NCBI GenBank assembly: GCA_021824175.1
Contig: JAKALP010000014.1
Coordinates: 1-64,000 of the forward strand
Length of the DNA stretch: 64,000 nucleotides
Reading direction: 5' to 3'
Origin: Deltaproteobacteria bacterium
Lineage (GTDB): Bacteria > Desulfobacterota > Desulfobacteria > Desulfobacterales > Desulfosarcinaceae
The notes below the pieces were generated by a model. That model ran no database searches. It was not told the origin of the DNA and saw only the letters and a list, made by a program, of their open reading frames with translations. A program made the translations under genes and the position numbers. This document shows positions 15,955-33,578 of the stretch, one piece after another (position 1 is the first letter of the stretch; each line of letters starts with the position of its first letter).

Positions 15955-15989
15955 CCCTCTCCTTGGCGGGAGAGGGTCAGGGTGAGGGG
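15955..15989 (+). repeat. REP-like palindrome abutting adaptor RBS
   Basis: CCCTCTCC / GGAGAGGG form an eight-base stem, followed by TCAGGGTGAGGGG. The same unit recurs at 23062-23086 (inverted) and 23190-23221, and as a tail at about 20800. The GGTGAGGGGGAG end is the only SD-like sequence before the adaptor ATG at 15999. Confidence 0.65.
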
Positions 15990-20100: not shown

Positions 20101-20205
20101 AGCGGCATCGCCATCGGCACCCTGTTCACCCTGTTCGTGGTGCCGGCCATGTATATGCTGCTGGCCCAGGAGCATGGCAGCGGAAGCACGAGCAACGTGA
20201 CATGA
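17128..20205 (+). CDS. RND family efflux pump, HAE1 (AcrB/MexF-like)
   Basis: 1025 residues, normal for the family. TM1 is at about 14-31, a large periplasmic loop follows, then TM2-6 with the proton-relay aspartates in LVVDDAIIVVENVHR (about 408-422). A second loop and TM8-12 (SLAALFESFVDPLIIL, GLISKHGILIVRFAND) complete the fold; the last block carries the conserved Lys/His region. It exports hydrophobic or amphiphilic compounds using the proton gradient. Third gene of the efflux operon; the stop overlaps the ATG of a cheR remnant by ATGA. Confidence 0.93.
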   Translation: MPNERNRFTDIFIQRPVLATVVSLLILVLGLRALGLLRVRQFPETQNAVVTVSTVYTGADPDLVSGFITTPLENSIAQADGIDYLNSSSTQGLSTIQANLRLNYDINAALTEINTKVNAVLNQLPRESQQPVITLSIGETIDAMYIGFYSTDLPANKITDYLIRVVQPKLQAVPGVQTAEILGGRQFALRAWLDPRKMAAYGVTGSDVSNVLAANDFISALGRTKGQMVTLNLTADTGLHTADEFRNLVIKSQNGAIIRLGDVAHVSLGSENYDTSVAFDGRRAVYIGIQVTPSANLLNVVSGVHQAFPAIAAQLPAGLNGRIVYDSTKYVDSSIHEVIMTLVEALLIVTFVIFLFLASVRTVIIPVIAMPLSLIGTFFIMLILGYTINLLTLLALVLAIGLVVDDAIIVVENVHRHMEEGTPPLRAAILGARELAGPIVAMTVVLVAVYVPIGFMGGLTGALFTEFAFSLVGAVTVSAIVALTLSPMMCSRFLKPDDKEHRHRFMDFVDRQFDRLRKRYERLLHGSLDYRPVVVVFSLIILGSIYFLYTSSKRELAPQEDQGVVIALVTAAPDATLEQTQLSTHQVHKILADYSQTDHIFQLDGVSGLNTGIAGMVLKPWDERDRTAMQLQPEVQQKLNGIAGVKAVAFQRPPLPGGGRGLPVQFVIGTTDSFDQLNQVTQALMDKARASGLFAFLDSDLKIDKPQMAVQIDRSKAAQLGLTMADVGSALGSMLGGGYVNYFSLAGRSYKVIPQVMQRYRLNPDQLRNYYIRTSSGATVPVSTIVHLKSSVVPESLNHFQQLNAATISGVPQPGVSLGQALDKMKELAAQSLPQGYSIDYSGQSRQYENESSQLVVTFVFALIIIYLSLAALFESFVDPLIILISVPMSICGALIFISLGVGGASLNIYTEVGLVTLIGLISKHGILIVRFANDLQLAGRPKREALESAAAIRLRPILMTTAAMVLGVLPLVIATGAGAVGRFNMGLVIMSGIAIGTLFTLFVVPAMYMLLAQEHGSGSTSNVT

Positions 20206-20779
20206 TTGTACCAGCTCTGAATTTCTCCCAATATAAAGTCAATACCCTGCTGCGGCGCATCAGCCGCCGCATGGGCCTGAACCAGATCGCGGACCAGGGG
20301 CAATACCTGCGCCACCTGCGCGAGAGCCCCGCCGAAGTGGAGGCGCTCTTCCGGGAGCTGCTCATCGGTGTCACCGGCTTTTTCCGCGACGCCGAATCCT
20401 TCGAAGCGCTGAAGACCGATATGCTGCCGAGCCTTTTGGCGCGGCAGTCCGACGATGGCACGCTGCTCGACAGGCGAAGAAGTCTTTTCTCTGGCCATGG
20501 TGCTGCGCGAAGTGATCGATGGGGAACCCAAGCGGATTCAATTGCAGCTCTTCGGCACTGATATCGACAACCGCGCCATTGACCGCGCGCGAGGCGGTTT
20601 ACCCGGCCAGCATCGCGGCGGATGTAAACGCCGAGCGCCTGAAACCCTTCTTTACCAAGGAAGACGATTTCTTCCGAGTGCGCAAGGAGATCCGGGACAG
20701 CGTGGTCTTTTCGGTCCAGGACCTGATCCGGGACCCGCCCTTTAGGCGGGGGTTGTCGGCCGCCGGGCCTTATGAATAA
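20202..20779 (+). pseudogene. CheR methyltransferase remnant (two frameshifts, truncated)
   Basis: Three frames together read as a CheR domain of the CheB-CheR type. FSQYKVNTLLRRISRRMGL to SLLARQ is in frame with 20202. CSTGEEVFSLAMVL (the SAM-binding region) to DIDNRAIDRAR lies in a second frame from about 20464. REAVYPASIAADV to VFSVQDLIRDPPF lies in a third frame from about 20590. The segment between the first two blocks is also shortened. The downstream part of CheR (after DPPF) is absent. The overlap of its first ATG with the pump stop is probably an accident of the rearrangement that brought it here. Confidence 0.75.
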
Positions 20780-21143
20780 GTAAGCCGTCTCAAGATAAGG
20801 TCGGGGTGAGGGGGCTAAGATATGCCATCGCCCTGCCCCGAGGCCTGATTTAGCTCGAATGCCAGGAAACTGCCCGTAGTGCCCCCATGGTTGTCCCCCA
20901 TTGCCTCCTGCCCAAGTACAAACTAATCTCTAAGCGTAGGCCAAACGCGTACACTGGGTAGGCCCCTGCGCTGGTGGCATTATTCGGACAATTTCAATCT
21001 TACTCGACGCATACACTGCTCCGCGGACATTGCCTGCGATGGGCATCTCAAACATCAAACGGATTCGAAGTGAAGTCCGTCCCCCGCTCTTTTGATTTTG
21101 CCGCCCCGACTCCTGCCCGGCTCAAATATCTGGAGGTAGTATT
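20780..21143. other. non-coding gap
   Basis: Holds a REP-like tail near 20800 and the GGAGGTAG ribosome site of the next gene. Otherwise nothing recognised on either strand. Confidence 0.4.
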
Positions 21144-21587
21144 ATGATCCATGTGCTGCAGTCTCAAGTAACCGCGATGATGGACGCGCCGCATAAAATT
21201 ACTACTGACCGCGTGCCATTAGGCCGCGCGCTGGTGGTGGACGATCAAGCCGTGGCCTTGAAATTGGTGCAGCGGATGCTGGAGATATTAGGCTTTTCGA
21301 CCGTGGCGGTTTCCGGCGGACGAGATGCCATGGTGTGTTTGAATCAATACCGCTACGATCTGCTGCTGACCGACCTTCAGATGCCGGATATGGACGGCTA
21401 TTCCCTGGCCGGCTGGCTCAAACACCAATGGCAGGATACCCCGGTGATTATCATGACAGGTACCTGCCCGGCCGAAGTGGCTGGCTTCATGCGCGGCAAC
21501 CTGGTGGACCACTGGCTTTTCAAACCGTTCACTTTGAATGAATTGGCCGCGGCCGTGAAAAAGTTCGTGCGCGTGAAGGACTCATAG
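21144..21587 (+). CDS. single-domain response regulator (receiver only)
   Basis: 147 residues: a 25-residue leader, then one receiver domain with acidic pair DD at 33-34, phospho-acceptor Asp77 (LLLTDLQMPDMDG), Thr in IIMTG near 103 and Lys in LFKPF near 125. All catalytic residues are present, so it should be phosphorylatable. There is no output domain, suggesting a CheY/Spo0F-like relay or protein-interaction role. It is followed by a related degenerate receiver and lies next to a cheR remnant, so the locus may have been part of a chemotaxis-like system. SD GGAGGTAG. Confidence 0.88.
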   Translation: MIHVLQSQVTAMMDAPHKITTDRVPLGRALVVDDQAVALKLVQRMLEILGFSTVAVSGGRDAMVCLNQYRYDLLLTDLQMPDMDGYSLAGWLKHQWQDTPVIIMTGTCPAEVAGFMRGNLVDHWLFKPFTLNELAAAVKKFVRVKDS

Positions 21588-21863
21588 ACAAGTGAAGTGA
21601 ATTGGCAAAGGCTTCAAGAACACCCCTTTTTCAAAAGCGCGGTATTTAAACAACAGGCGTTCTACTTCCAACATATGGTGTCGCCAATGGAGAAGTATTT
21701 TCTCTCCCCCGACATTACAACGGGAGGTCTTCTCTAAGAGCACCGGCACGCCGACACTGTTTTCATCAAGCGCCGCTCGGCCAATGAAGCCCATGAAACG
21801 CCGAACCCTGTTTCCGGATAGAGACCGCAAGCAAGATAGCTTGCGCAGAAAGGGGATGAAATC

Positions 21864-22400
21864 ATGTCTTCGATACTGAAAGATAGACAATGCCCTGGGG
21901 AGGGGGAGGCTTCGGCTTCCGCTTGTCGATCCATAGGTCCAAAGGCGTTGGTGGTGAACGATCGGATGGCCATGATCCATACAGTAGGCCGTATGCTCGC
22001 CGCTTTAGGTTATCGTGTGGAACCGGCCTGTGGTGCGCTGGCGGCGTTGCACCTTCTTCGCAAATCCATTTATGATTTGGTGGTCACTGACTTGAAAATC
22101 GCCCATATGGACGGATTTTCGCTCTCCGCCTGGGTCAAAAGCAGGTTTGAAGATACACGGGTGATCGTCATGATCGATCTGGTTTCCGCTGAGGTAGATT
22201 TGTATATGCGCGCGGGGGTGGTGGACCGATGGCTGTTCAAGCCTTTCCGCACTGAAGATCTGGTGGCTCTGCTTCGCGAAATGATACTGGTGCCGCCATG
22301 CATGAGCGGCACGTCGATTCCGTCAACCACGCCCCGCAGTACTGATGCTCCTCACCTGAGGGATGGGCACGGATTGCTCACAAATGGGCCTATTCGATAA
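21864..22400 (+). CDS. degenerate receiver-domain protein
   Basis: 178 residues with a receiver fold clearly related to its upstream neighbour (DLVVTDLKIAHMDGFSL versus DLLLTDLQMPDMDGYSL). The first acidic residue is Asn32 (VVNDR), the MP after Asp76 is IA, and the switch Thr is replaced (VIVMIDLV). Asp76 and the Lys in LFKPF remain. Phosphorylation is therefore doubtful and it may act as a constitutive or decoy receiver. A Ser/Thr/Pro-rich tail of about 40 residues follows the domain. The gene end overlaps the convergent REC-KH gene by 11 bases. Confidence 0.8.
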   Translation: MSSILKDRQCPGEGEASASACRSIGPKALVVNDRMAMIHTVGRMLAALGYRVEPACGALAALHLLRKSIYDLVVTDLKIAHMDGFSLSAWVKSRFEDTRVIVMIDLVSAEVDLYMRAGVVDRWLFKPFRTEDLVALLREMILVPPCMSGTSIPSTTPRSTDAPHLRDGHGLLTNGPIR

Positions 22401-22842
22401 TTTCAAGGACGGCCCGGGTGTGAGTCTTGGCTGCGACCGCGCCGATGAGGGTCCGCATGGCCTGGGCCGTACGCCCCTGGCGGCCGATAATTTTAACGAT
22501 ATCGTCTTTAGCAACCCGCAGCTCCAATACCATAGTGCCGCCGCCTTGAATCATCGAAACCTCCACTTCCTGAGGACGATCCACGAGAGCTTGCACGATT
22601 CGGGTTACCAAGTCGGTTACCAGCAGGTGATAAACCGCGCCGTTCTCGGAGTCGGACAGGGCTTGAGGATTTTGGGCGGCATCCACTTCGAAGCCGAGCT
22701 TGACGAGCAGATTGACCACGTAGCGCAATACCTGCGGTTCATCATCGACCACCAGGCAACGCAGGCCATTGCCGTCATTGCCCGCCTTGATCGTCAACAA
22801 TCCCCGGCTGGATGTTTTTTGCGGTAGCAATCTGTCTGGCAT
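22390..22842 (-). CDS. half-receiver fused to KhpA-like KH RNA-binding domain
   Basis: 150 residues. Residues 27-77 are the first half of a receiver: RCLVVDDEPQVLRYVVNLL, with the acidic pair in DDE 33-35, running to the phospho-acceptor-like Asp77 in HLLVTDL. The text then passes without a linker into a complete KhpA-type KH domain (78-150): [30 protein letters not shown] with GxxG loop GRQG at 120-123, and VLEIIE at the end. Stand-alone KhpA is about 75-80 residues and binds RNA, usually with KhpB. The receiver lacks its alpha3-beta5 half, so normal phosphotransfer is unlikely. SD GAGGAG precedes the ATG. No stop or frameshift is seen. A second KhpA-like gene lies at 33.3 kb. Confidence 0.8.
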   Translation of the reverse strand: MPDRLLPQKTSSRGLLTIKAGNDGNGLRCLVVDDEPQVLRYVVNLLVKLGFEVDAAQNPQALSDSENGAVYHLLVTDLVTRIVQALVDRPQEVEVSMIQGGGTMVLELRVAKDDIVKIIGRQGRTAQAMRTLIGAVAAKTHTRAVLEIIE

Positions 22843-23061
22843 TCACAAACTCCTCAGCCTTTGATATTCGAGCACCCTATTCAATATTCATTAAACAAAA
22901 TTGAACTGGAAGCAACAATGGGAAACACCGGTCAAAGTGCGGGAGAAAAGCCTCCGTCGCAAAGTGGCGAGAATCGACCCCATGGAAGAATTTATGGGTT
23001 ACAGAGTTCCGGGCATATAACCAAAATCCTTAGGCCATGTCGAAGTAATCAATTATCTTAG

Positions 23062-23221
23062 CCCCTCACCCCTCGGGGAGAGGGAGCACTTGCCCGTGAG
23101 ACCAATAGTATAAAGGTTTACTGGCACATTCCGTTTCTCTTAGGTAAGCAGAATATTTAAATATGCCGCAAAACATCAAGGTAGTGACTCCCTCTCCCCT
23201 CGGGAGAGGTTCGGGGTGAGG
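23062..23221. repeat. pair of REP-like palindromes in inverted orientation
   Basis: 23062-23086 reads CCCCTCACCCCTCGGGG and onward; 23190-23221 reads CCCTCTCCCCTCGGGAGAGG followed by TTCGGGGTGAGG. They are opposite orientations of the unit seen at 15955-15989. The second has an eight-base stem (23191-23198 with 23202-23209). The arrangement resembles a BIME. Confidence 0.65.
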
Positions 23222-23260
23222 ATCCCAAAAGCGATGCCCCTGGCATCATGCACCGGTTCG

Positions 23261-23288
23261 TTGACAAGCCCCCACGGGCTGCTATATT
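23261..23288 (+). promoter_or_regulatory. sigma-70-like promoter upstream of cyoA
   Basis: TTGACA at 23261-23266 and TATATT at 23283-23288 with a 16-base spacer. The spacer contains AGCCC-CCAC-GGGCT, a short inverted repeat that could be an operator. The cyoA start is about 150 bases downstream, leaving a long leader. Confidence 0.5.
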
Positions 23289-23441
23289 GCTTTAATTCAA
23301 TAAACGGCCATATCAGCGCTGCTGAGAAGAAAAACGGCGCACCGCTGGGCGGCTTGGCAAACGGTTTGGATGGGATATCGGCCAGAATTGCCATCCCTAT
23401 GTTGTGGCAACCACCTACTTTAAACATATTGGCGTGAATCA

Positions 23442-24380
23442 ATGAGAAGACTCATGCGGTTTCTGGGCAGCGGCATCGCAGCCCTGGGCGTCACGGCCCT
23501 GCTCAGCGGTTGTGATCATCTGCTGCTGCTCAACCCAAAGGGGCCCATCGGCGCGGAAGAGCGCTTTGTGCTCATTGCAGCCGTGGTGCTCATGTTGATC
23601 GTGGTCATTCCCGTGGCCATCATGAACATCTGGTTTCCCTGGCGCTACCGGGCTTCGCGCAGCGGAGCGGCGTACTCCCCCAAATGGGCCACCTCGCTTA
23701 AGTTAGAGGTGGTGGTGTGGCTGGTGCCGGCCCTCATCGTCACGGCGCTCAGTATTTTAGTGTGGGACACCACCCACCGGCTGGACCCCTACAAGCCCAT
23801 CGACACCGGTGTTAAGCCCGTGCGCATCGAAGCGGTCTCCCTGGACTGGAAATGGCTTTTCATCTACCCGGATTTCAACATCGCCGCGGTCAACAAGCTT
23901 GTCTTTCCCGCCAAGGTTCCCCTGAGCTTCCGGCTGACATCGGCCTCGGTGATGACCTCCTTTTTCATTCCACAGCTGGGCAGCCAGATTTACGCCATGG
24001 GTGGCATGCAGACGCAGCTAAATTTGCTGGCCGACGAGCCCGGCACCTATGCCGGCCAGAACCAGCAGTACAGCGGCGAGGGCTACGCCGGCATGAATTT
24101 CAAGGCCATCGCCACCTCGCGGGAAGCCTTCGAGGACTGGATAGCGCAAGCCCGCCAATCCCCTGAAACCCTTGACCTGGCACGCTACGAACAGCTTGAG
24201 GCGCCCAGCGAAAATGCACCGGTGATGCTCTTTTCGGGGGTCCAGCCCGGACTGTTCGACACCGTCTTGGTCAAATACGGCATGTCCATGCAGACCCAAC
24301 CAGCCGTTATGAATTCGCGGTCTCATGATATGGAATCCCATGGAATGCAGATGAAACCTAATACTTCGGAGAAAAATTGA
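23442..24380 (+). CDS. cyoA: cytochrome bo3-type quinol oxidase subunit II
   Basis: 312 residues, lipoprotein signal with lipobox LSGC (Cys24), two transmembrane helices (about 43-64 and 88-108), then a periplasmic cupredoxin-like domain. The CuA ligands of cytochrome c oxidases are absent (the region reads MNFKAIA), which marks a quinol-oxidising subunit. [18 protein letters not shown] is the family's typical block. First gene of cyoABCDE with one base before cyoB. The SD is weak. Confidence 0.94.
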
Positions 24381-30819: not shown

Positions 30820-31501
30820 ATACCTCCCTCGGCCAAAGAAATTTTCAAACTCTTCCCCTGGACCGGCTGGGGATCATTTGAATGCGGGTAAACTCGAAAT
30901 GCTTTGCCCACACCCATCGGGTCGGTCCTTTACTGCTTTTGCAAGAATAATGCATGGAAGTATAAAGGCAACGCGTCAAACTGAGGCTTGAAGCGGGTTG
31001 GGAGACACCCTATTGGTTTGATTTCCATTGTCCTTGCTTCTTATCCTGGCGGGTTCGGGGCGCGGGGGTTCATATACTGCCCTGATGAATGGGAAATAGG
31101 GGCAAGTATGTATTCCAAAAATCGCAAAATCATTCTAAATGCTAAACGGAATAGACGCAAAGAGATAGCACGCGTGGCCAATCTTCTACGATGAGGATGG
31201 CTTCCAACTCCTGATGCCGAAAGAAATTCGAAAGGTTGACAAACCATCTCAATAACGGTTCTGTATCCAACACTATTTTGAGATGACCTAGTGGTTCCCC
31301 CGCTCGGCCGTCCTTCCCCGGATGGCCAAAAACTCCCCCTAATGACCGCAGGCACCCGGCTCCAATGGGTGTCGCACGACACCTTCCGGCAAATGCCTGC
31401 GGTCCCTGCCTCATTGTCTGCGCATATTTGCACTGCGGAGTCAAAGCTGATAGGTTATGGCTGATATCTCAACCGGCGGTTGTCCATCCAAAGGGAAAAA
31501 C
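30820..31501. other. long intergenic region upstream of MASE3 kinase
   Basis: About 680 bases. Several open frames on both strands lack ribosome sites and family resemblance. No hairpin, repeat or consensus promoter strong enough to name was seen. Confidence 0.4.
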
Positions 31502-33109
31502 ATGGTTATGAAAAAGACCCAGAATATATTCATGTTGGCCGTGGCGGTGATGGCCCTGATCGGCCTCTATCTCAGCAGCATTTACAGTTTTCTGCTGTTT
31601 CACACGCTGGCGGAGATGTTCTCCATTTCCATTGCCTGCGGCATGTTCATGATAGCCTGGAACTCACGCCAATTCACCAGCGACCACTATCTGCTGTTTC
31701 TTGGAATTGCCTATTTGTTCGTGGCGGGGTTGGATTTGCTGCATACCATCGCCTACAAGGGCATGCATCTGCTGATCATCGGCGATAGCACCAATGTGGC
31801 GGCGCAGTTCTGGATCGCGGCGCGATGCCTGGAAAGCGTTTCCCTATTGATCAGCCCATTGTTCTTGCGGCGCAAGCTGCAAGTCGATCTTTTGTTATCG
31901 ATTTTCGGTATCATTTTTTTCTTAATCATTTTGTCCATTGTTTACTGGAAAATCTTCCCAGCCTGTTTTATCGAAGGCAGCGGATTGACTCCGTTTAAAA
32001 TACGCATTGAGTATGTCATTTGCGGAATCCTGCTGGTGGCGGCCACGGTGATTTATAAGCGCCGGGCGGAACAAGAGCGCGTGGTGGTACAGTGGCTGCT
32101 GGTCTCCATTGCCTTTACCATCGCCTCGGAAATCGCCTTTACCGATTATGTCTGGGCCTACGGATTCGCCAACCTGATCGGCCACTACTTTAAGATTCTG
32201 TCGTTTTACTTCATCTACAGGGCCATCATTCAAACAGCGCTGACCAACCCGTACTCGTTGCTGTTTCTTGAATTGAAGCGGAGCGAACAGGCCCTGGAGA
32301 TAGCCCGTCGCAATCTGGAAGAGAAGGTATTCGAACGCACCGCCGACCTGCGGGCCACGGTCAATGAACTATCGCAAGAAGTTCGCAGGCGGTTAAACGC
32401 CGAAAACATGTTGCGTCGTCTTTCCCGCAAGAGCATAGATACCCTTGAAAACGACCGCAAATCAGTTGCCAAGGAGCTCCACGACAGCATCGGCGGCAGC
32501 CTGGCCGCGATCAAATTTCTGCTGGAGGAAATTTTAACGCATGCCGGCAAAAATGTTGATCTGGAAGTAAAGCAGATTAGAAAGGCAATCTACTACATGG
32601 CCGACACCATCCGTGAAACCAAACGTATTTCGGCCCGCTTGCGCCCCCTGACGCTGGAAGAACTTGGTCTGTTGTCCACGATTGAGGCGCACGTGCGTCG
32701 ATTTTCCGACCTCTACAGCGGCATCAAAATCGAACGGCGGATCGAGGTTAAGGAAGAGGAGATTCCGGACAATCTCAAAATCGTCATTTATCGTATATTG
32801 CAGGAAGCCCTGAACAATGTGGGTAAACACAGCAAAGCTTCCAGCGTATGTATCGGCTTAAAGGCCGTTAACGGCAAAATAATTTTCGAACTGGCGGACA
32901 ATGGCCTCGGTTTCGATCCCGAAATCCAGCGTCAATCCAATACCGGATTGAGCGGATACGGTCTGCAGAGCATGCGAGAGCGCACCGAAATTGTCGGTGG
33001 CTGTTTCACGGTAATTTCCGGTCCACACCAGGGTGTTCATATAAAAATCGAATTGCCTCTCGATCCAAATCCGATTGAAATCACTGCGGACCCCCTGCCC
33101 CAGGATTGA
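31502..33109 (+). CDS. MASE3 sensor kinase, NarX-type (HisKA_3)
   Basis: 535 residues from ATG 31502 (AAAGGGA upstream). The N-terminal 250 residues are a MASE3 membrane sensor closely resembling that of the kinase at 11.75 kb (YSFLLFHTLAEMFSI, DLLHTIAYKGMHLL). A coiled linker leads to a HisKA_3 region with AKELHDSIGGSLAAIKF (phospho-acceptor His) and an HATPase domain with LQEALNNVGKHS, DNGLGF and GYGLQSMRERTE. This subclass partners NarL/FixJ regulators; the only one in the window is at 37.7 kb. Its HisKA_3 part is very like that of the 35.8-kb kinase. Confidence 0.9.
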   Translation: MVMKKTQNIFMLAVAVMALIGLYLSSIYSFLLFHTLAEMFSISIACGMFMIAWNSRQFTSDHYLLFLGIAYLFVAGLDLLHTIAYKGMHLLIIGDSTNVAAQFWIAARCLESVSLLISPLFLRRKLQVDLLLSIFGIIFFLIILSIVYWKIFPACFIEGSGLTPFKIRIEYVICGILLVAATVIYKRRAEQERVVVQWLLVSIAFTIASEIAFTDYVWAYGFANLIGHYFKILSFYFIYRAIIQTALTNPYSLLFLELKRSEQALEIARRNLEEKVFERTADLRATVNELSQEVRRRLNAENMLRRLSRKSIDTLENDRKSVAKELHDSIGGSLAAIKFLLEEILTHAGKNVDLEVKQIRKAIYYMADTIRETKRISARLRPLTLEELGLLSTIEAHVRRFSDLYSGIKIERRIEVKEEEIPDNLKIVIYRILQEALNNVGKHSKASSVCIGLKAVNGKIIFELADNGLGFDPEIQRQSNTGLSGYGLQSMRERTEIVGGCFTVISGPHQGVHIKIELPLDPNPIEITADPLPQD

Positions 33110-33269: not shown

Positions 33270-33578
33270 ATGAACCGCATTATCAGCAGTATTCAGCCGC
33301 ATTCAAATGTTCCAGCACCGGTGGATAAGGGATTTTTTCGGGATGACACAGCGCAATTGGTGGATCAAATCGCCAAATCCCTGGTGGACAATCCACAACA
33401 GGTGCTGGTCACGATGGTCAATGGTGAAAATACTACGGTCCTTGAGTTGAAGGTGGCCAAGGAAGACCTCGGCAAGGTGATCGGCAAACAGGGTCGCACC
33501 GCCCAGGCGATGCGTACGCTTCTGTCAGCCATCTCATCAAAATCTCGAAAGCATATGGTCCTGGAGATTGTCGAGTAA
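33270..33578 (+). CDS. KhpA-like KH-domain RNA-binding protein
   Basis: 102 residues. Residues 28-102 form a full KhpA-type KH domain ([35 protein letters not shown] with GxxG loop GKQG at 72-75, MVLEIVE). A 25-residue extension precedes it, unlike the usual 75-80-residue KhpA. Normally khpA lies between rpsP and rimM; here it follows a sensor kinase, so it is probably a paralogue. AAGGAGTGACAT is the ribosome site. Expected role: RNA chaperone or small-RNA binding. The KH part of the REC-KH fusion at 22.4 kb is its closest relative in the window. Confidence 0.85.

Follow-up and report, generated by a model that had tools for sequence, protein, structure and literature searches.

The reading frame at 22390-22842 raises the question of whether a bacterium has brought two-component signalling and RNA binding together in one protein, or whether a loss of DNA has left parts of two neighbouring genes in a single frame. 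The frame lies in the window, i.e. the whole stretch of 64,000 nucleotides that was analysed, and it runs from half of a receiver into a KH domain of the KhpA type. We put the probability at roughly 80% that the fusion is the in-frame deletion product of a tandem pair made up of a receiver gene and a khpA gene.

The fused frame and its two domains

The fused gene and its parts are as follows.

22390..22842, minus strand: fused open reading frame, first half of a receiver plus KhpA-type KH domain, 150 amino acids, ATG start
22612..22761, minus strand: receiver part with beta1-alpha1-beta2-alpha2-beta3, residues 28-77; it retains the acidic pair and Asp77 and has no second half
22399..22614, minus strand: complete KH_KhpA-B domain (PF13083), residues 77-148, found with Pfam
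22474..22485, minus strand: GxxG loop, here GRQG, residues 120-123
22609..22620, minus strand: junction VTDL, residues 75-78, the putative deletion joint (from the alignment of the protein with the receiver and KH of C41, and from junction DNA)
22850..22855, minus strand: Shine-Dalgarno-like GAGGAG, 7 nt upstream of the fusion's ATG (by eye)

It was originally predicted that half a receiver, with its acidic pair and strands 1-3 up to Asp77, passes without linker into a complete KH domain with a GxxG loop, and Pfam and the translation confirm this. The Pfam match to KH_KhpA-B covers profile positions 2-73 of 73 at E 3.4e-20 and scores 72.2 bits, where the cut-off is 32.1. Response_reg (PF00072) was matched at residues 30-78, over profile positions 2-50 of 111 (E 6.3e-5); its 23.5 bits stay below the cut-off of 30.2 for a complete receiver, as is expected for half a domain. 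Residues 28-79 also match a local receiver profile, made from four local receivers with one iteration on local ORFs, at an i-E of 2.7e-9, a value that is not independent because the fusion protein may itself have entered that profile. By eye, the acidic pair (DDE) and Asp77 are present in the translation and there are no linker residues between Asp77 and the start of the KH domain. Counted at the three codon positions, the GC content of each half is like that of a gene (0.66/0.35/0.69 and 0.68/0.40/0.63). With its unbroken frame and good start, the fusion is not an obvious pseudogene.

The AlphaFold model gave the predicted order of a half receiver (E28-32, H36-48, E52-56, H60-63, E73-75) followed by the KH elements. 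This prediction, which had been proposed as a check, came at low confidence (mean pLDDT 66.8, pTM 0.45) from a 16-row alignment whose rows seemed, by eye, to be correctly placed. A fold search with the model returned zero PDB matches at E <=0.001. The first five matches were KH- or GTPase-bearing RNA-binding proteins, going by title or recall, and later ones included receivers (3a0r_B, 50 columns, rmsd 2.1) and KhpB/EloR (9lrg, 75 columns, rmsd 3.0); these matches are given little weight.

KhpA is defined as a small stand-alone KH protein. The fusion shares with it the whole KH domain with GxxG and differs in the N-terminal half receiver, in a valine for glycine before the GxxG, and in being an additional copy, with a different one standing between the ffh-like and rimM-like genes; at 150 residues it is too large for a small stand-alone KH protein. 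The NCBIfam search placed KH and receiver models on the same parts of the fusion, none above its curated cut-off, and the fusion is not a KhpA-type equivalog by these models (80.3 bits against 106 for NF001748, 77.4 against 85 for NF002201). Receivers need strands 4-5, the conserved Thr/Ser and the Lys. The fusion has the acidic pair, strands 1-3 and Asp77 in common with single-domain response regulators (Response_reg), but it lacks strands 4-5, the Thr/Ser and the Lys and falls under the Pfam cut-off. Phosphorylation-driven switching is therefore unlikely, and the original prediction was borne out here since the second half of the receiver is missing. ANTAR regulators use another RNA-binding domain than KH, and their response-regulator members have a complete receiver. 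The ANTAR domain was absent from the 3 Pfam and 14 NCBIfam families that the fusion matched at E <=1. The ANTAR regulators EutV and NasR, described in two papers as signalling proteins with RNA-binding output (PMC3369931, PMC7496416), resemble the fusion in having a signalling part with such an output. Because of its likely deletion origin, the fusion is best classed as a KhpA paralogue that carries a truncated receiver.

Receiver and khpA genes side by side

A possible model for the ancestral arrangement exists in the same genome (G000), where a complete single-domain receiver gene on C41 is followed, after about 65 bp, by a KhpA paralogue at 167340. The fusion can be aligned first with the C41 receiver (156 aa) and after it with the C41 KH protein (85 aa), with one large gap of 81 residues and some short ones. 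This gap removes the C41 receiver after VTD and the C41 KH protein before Leu-Val. It should be noted that the fusion was aligned against the two C41 proteins joined one after the other as their genes lie in the genome, which partly prescribes the order of the matches, and that the DNA alignment to the C41 pair is noisy outside the KH part.

The best KH match of the fusion in its own genome is the C41 KH (65% identity); in the named collection, a Desulfosarcina contig gave the highest value, 73% over 40 residues. The best receiver-only match in the fusion's own genome is the C41 receiver, ahead of the next by only 1.5 bits. When the receiver half was ranked against 99 other receiver stretches, the top two (G022 with 106, G020 with 104) belonged to the subfamily of the C41 receiver, and the C41 receiver itself came only tenth (91); L044 and L045, both of which had been fetched for sharing a query peptide, also outranked it. 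The receiver half alone is thus less telling on the origin of the fusion.

In the proposed course of events a single-domain receiver gene would have been followed by a KhpA-paralogue gene, and an in-frame stretch would have been lost from the copy in the window. The loss could have been about 310 bp if the genes were arranged as at C41 (the 81-residue gap, the stop and the intergenic gap), and it would have removed the second half of the receiver with its stop, the intergenic stretch and the beginning of the KH gene. What was left would be one frame, with an incomplete receiver joined to a KH domain keeping its GxxG. Such a receiver should not act as a phospho-switch, and phosphotransfer would presumably be lost. 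The product may still be a KhpA-like RNA-binding subunit, in which RNA binding is presumed, or it may be on its way out. In Streptococcus pneumoniae, according to one study, KhpA forms a homodimer and also binds the KH domain of EloR, giving the KhpB/EloR heterodimer (PMC6403258). By analogy, the fused KH domain could keep KhpA-like contacts and RNA binding.

We infer the deletion event itself from pairs at other loci. Separate full-length receiver and khpA genes, originally named as the sign of a local deletion, do occur as neighbours in the same genome (G000 C41) and in two congeners of the window genome (G001 C7, G009 C24), but at loci other than this one, and no intact pair was found at the exact place of the fusion among the relatives compared. 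The pair also looks eroded in other relatives. In G017, what we take to be a glucan-phosphorylase-like gene is directly followed by the second half of a receiver and then a KH domain. In G022 a similar phosphorylase-like gene has a receiver with an internal stop as its neighbour, and a tblastn search of the 7-kb stretch gave no KH. G020 has an intact receiver, with no KH before the contig ends shortly after. On a Desulfosarcina contig (L032, 5893-6123) the half of a KH domain that carries GxxG stands in frame behind an unrelated peptide, coiled-coil-like by eye, which is perhaps another deletion fusion.

A widely conserved pairing of receiver and KH was not seen. The receiver subfamily (profile A5) was found at 28 places in 22 of 291 genomes of the order, among the best 11 candidates per genome. 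A KH domain lay within 1.5 kb in 5 of these 28, namely G009, G000 C41, G017 and the two window receivers, whose KH neighbour is the fusion itself; G001 is missing from this result. The converse count rests on 66 KH ORFs, part of the 109 KH matches outside the window in 39 relatives and the same genome (4/4 from the rest of that genome, 40/40 from ten same-genus genomes, 22/45 from 14 other family genomes, 0/20 at order level; the count excludes G020, G021 and G024). In five of the 66 a gene with a receiver, or the remnant of one, stood within 150 bp upstream on the same strand (G000 C41, G001, G009, the G017 remnant, and G011 with a gene labelled NtrC-like by eye), and in six any receiver lay within 1.5 kb. 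In both G001 and G009, kinases whose N terminus resembles, by eye, that of the sensor-kinase-like gene at 31457-33109 of the window adjoin the receiver-KH pair.

A tree built from 69 KH domains groups the KH of the fusion with those of C41, G017 and G043 at a support of 0.902. Inside this group the supports are weak (0.191 with G017; 0.495 with G017 and C41), and no upstream receiver was noticed by eye for the G043 KH. A wider clade (0.797) also contains the receiver-adjacent KH domains of G001 and G009, and a receiver or remnant stands upstream in only 5 of its 11 KH domains, the fusion included. Both GxxG glycines are present in all 69 sequences. Four residues before the GxxG the fused domain has Val116, where the other 68 have glycine. 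It departs at three of 28 conserved columns, this valine among them, the most of any of the 69; four others depart at two, so the margin is small.

Neighbourhood and alternative explanations

The surroundings of the fusion include the following features.

20202..20779, plus strand: CheR remnant with a CheR_N match at its start, pieces in different frames (by eye)
21144..21587, plus strand: first receiver-only gene, whole Response_reg profile matched, over the Pfam cut-off
21864..22400, plus strand: second receiver-only gene, convergent with the fusion, over the Pfam cut-off
20206..23441, no strand: 3.2-kb block from an RND-type efflux gene to a COX2-type gene, defined by comparison with G006
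33270..33578, plus strand: KhpA paralogue that follows a sensor-kinase-like gene (the kinase judged by eye)

The two receiver-only genes said to adjoin the fusion are indeed there. The second overlaps its 3' end by 11 nt and, by eye, reads VVND and MID where others have VVDD and MTG; it appears to be degenerate, with its active site partly lost. The CheR remnant stands upstream of both. G020 has a CheR-like frame upstream of its related receiver.

The 3.2-kb block holds the CheR remnant, both receiver-only genes and the fusion, and the bordering efflux gene is presumably of the RND type. In the congener G006 the efflux and COX2-type genes lie about 224 nt apart without the block, and the COX2-type gene is 76% identical to that of the window. 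By this comparison, which covers the upstream side in G006, the block was either gained in the window genome or lost in G006. Among 29 other family genomes, a relative of the COX2-type gene at E <=1e-60 occurs in two (G006, G041). The sequence CCCTCACCCNNNCCCTCTCCC matches the window at 15968-15988 and 23202-23222, with 0 and 2 mismatches and no match in 100 shuffles, and a stretch at 20789-20811 is 78% similar to it; a dispersed repeat is possible.

The damaged neighbours bear on the alternative that the fusion is a pseudogene whose protein is not made. A broken CheR gene and a degenerate receiver adjoin it, its KH domain has departed furthest from the conserved columns, and a scan of 22300-23460 found no promoter-like match on the minus strand and two on the plus strand, against a mean of 1.1 in shuffled sequence, so that the scan favours neither side. 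However, 150 open codons have been kept together with a start, a ribosome-binding site and coding composition, and we consider a pseudogene a minority reading, rather unlikely as matters stand. It overlaps with the deletion reading, so the likelihoods of the two need not sum to one.

Selection could instead have favoured the chimera. The half receiver would then serve in docking or dimerisation and bring the KH domain into contact with a kinase, the neighbouring receivers or KhpB, or it would act as a decoy. The open frame, the strong ribosome-binding site, the gene-like composition of both halves and the kept GxxG would fit this, and the receiver and KH tandems of relatives hint at a prior functional tie. 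The original prediction proposed a search of related genomes for the same fusion. No second fusion was found in 39 other genomes (ten of the same genus, 14 others of the family, 15 from other families of the order), nor in 290 other genomes of the order, a partly overlapping sample in which up to 13 best candidates per genome were considered at E <=1e-22. A search with exact peptide seeds, which sees close relatives, gave no fusion matching both halves among 54 loci, and only one of 68 KH ORFs, the fusion of the window, had a receiver match. A fusion common to the genus or family was thus rejected for the samples searched. In the literature searched on KhpA, response regulators and RNA-binding output no receiver joined to a KH domain was found, and no paper there names KhpA together with Desulfo-.

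Several candidates were set aside. In G027, G033, G036, G056, G197, G233, G253 and C25 of the same genome the match extends before the KH domain and contains internal stops; in G001 C13, G003, G032, G035, G071 and G091 the frames, of 91-107 aa, are too short for an added half receiver. The stop-to-stop frames of 178 aa in G002 C7 and G007 C148 were matched only at residues 72-150 and 74-150, and no receiver was found in these KH ORFs when read from the first start. In L086 and L092 a protein that we take to be rpsP-like is followed by a stop and then the KH domain.

The absence of a second instance, the valine in place of a glycine kept by the other 68 KH domains and the damage to neighbouring genes all speak against a selected chimera, which we regard as improbable. 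A tie between two-component sensing and RNA binding by design is likewise unsupported, given the lack of a second instance and the deletion reading. An artefact joining two places of the genome is very improbable: the assembly has 61 contigs and an estimated contamination of 3.44%, but the nearest KH copy in the genome is only 65% identical, so the KH part was not misjoined from a copy elsewhere in the assembly, and the joint is in frame and fits the C41 gene order.

KhpA copies in the genome and the family

The same genome has six KhpA-type KH matches, the fusion included (C25, C55, two places on C41, window 33270-33578 and window 22390-22842), and one KhpB-like match in a longer frame on C48, which we take to be KhpB. 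The C25 copy lies beside genes that are presumably ffh-, rimM- and trmD-like, and the C55 copy near one that is presumably pyrG-like. All 30 family genomes sampled have at least one KhpA match, with 1 to 9 each, some of them partial; the 15 sampled outside the family but within the order have 1 or 2 each. A few of the family copies stand directly behind a receiver gene. This range of 1-9 matches, a few of them behind receivers, is less ordinary than the fusion.

The extra KhpA copies could be RNA-binding partners of the receivers upstream of them and the fusion a functional, phosphorylation-blind version, but we give this little credence. As the probable result of a deletion, the fusion taken alone is a one-off, and a plain case of how a deletion makes a new domain combination. 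If the receiver-KhpA pairs act together, they would form a link from two-component signalling to RNA, and the family background of 1 to 9 KhpA matches per genome, a few of them behind receivers, may matter more than the fusion itself.
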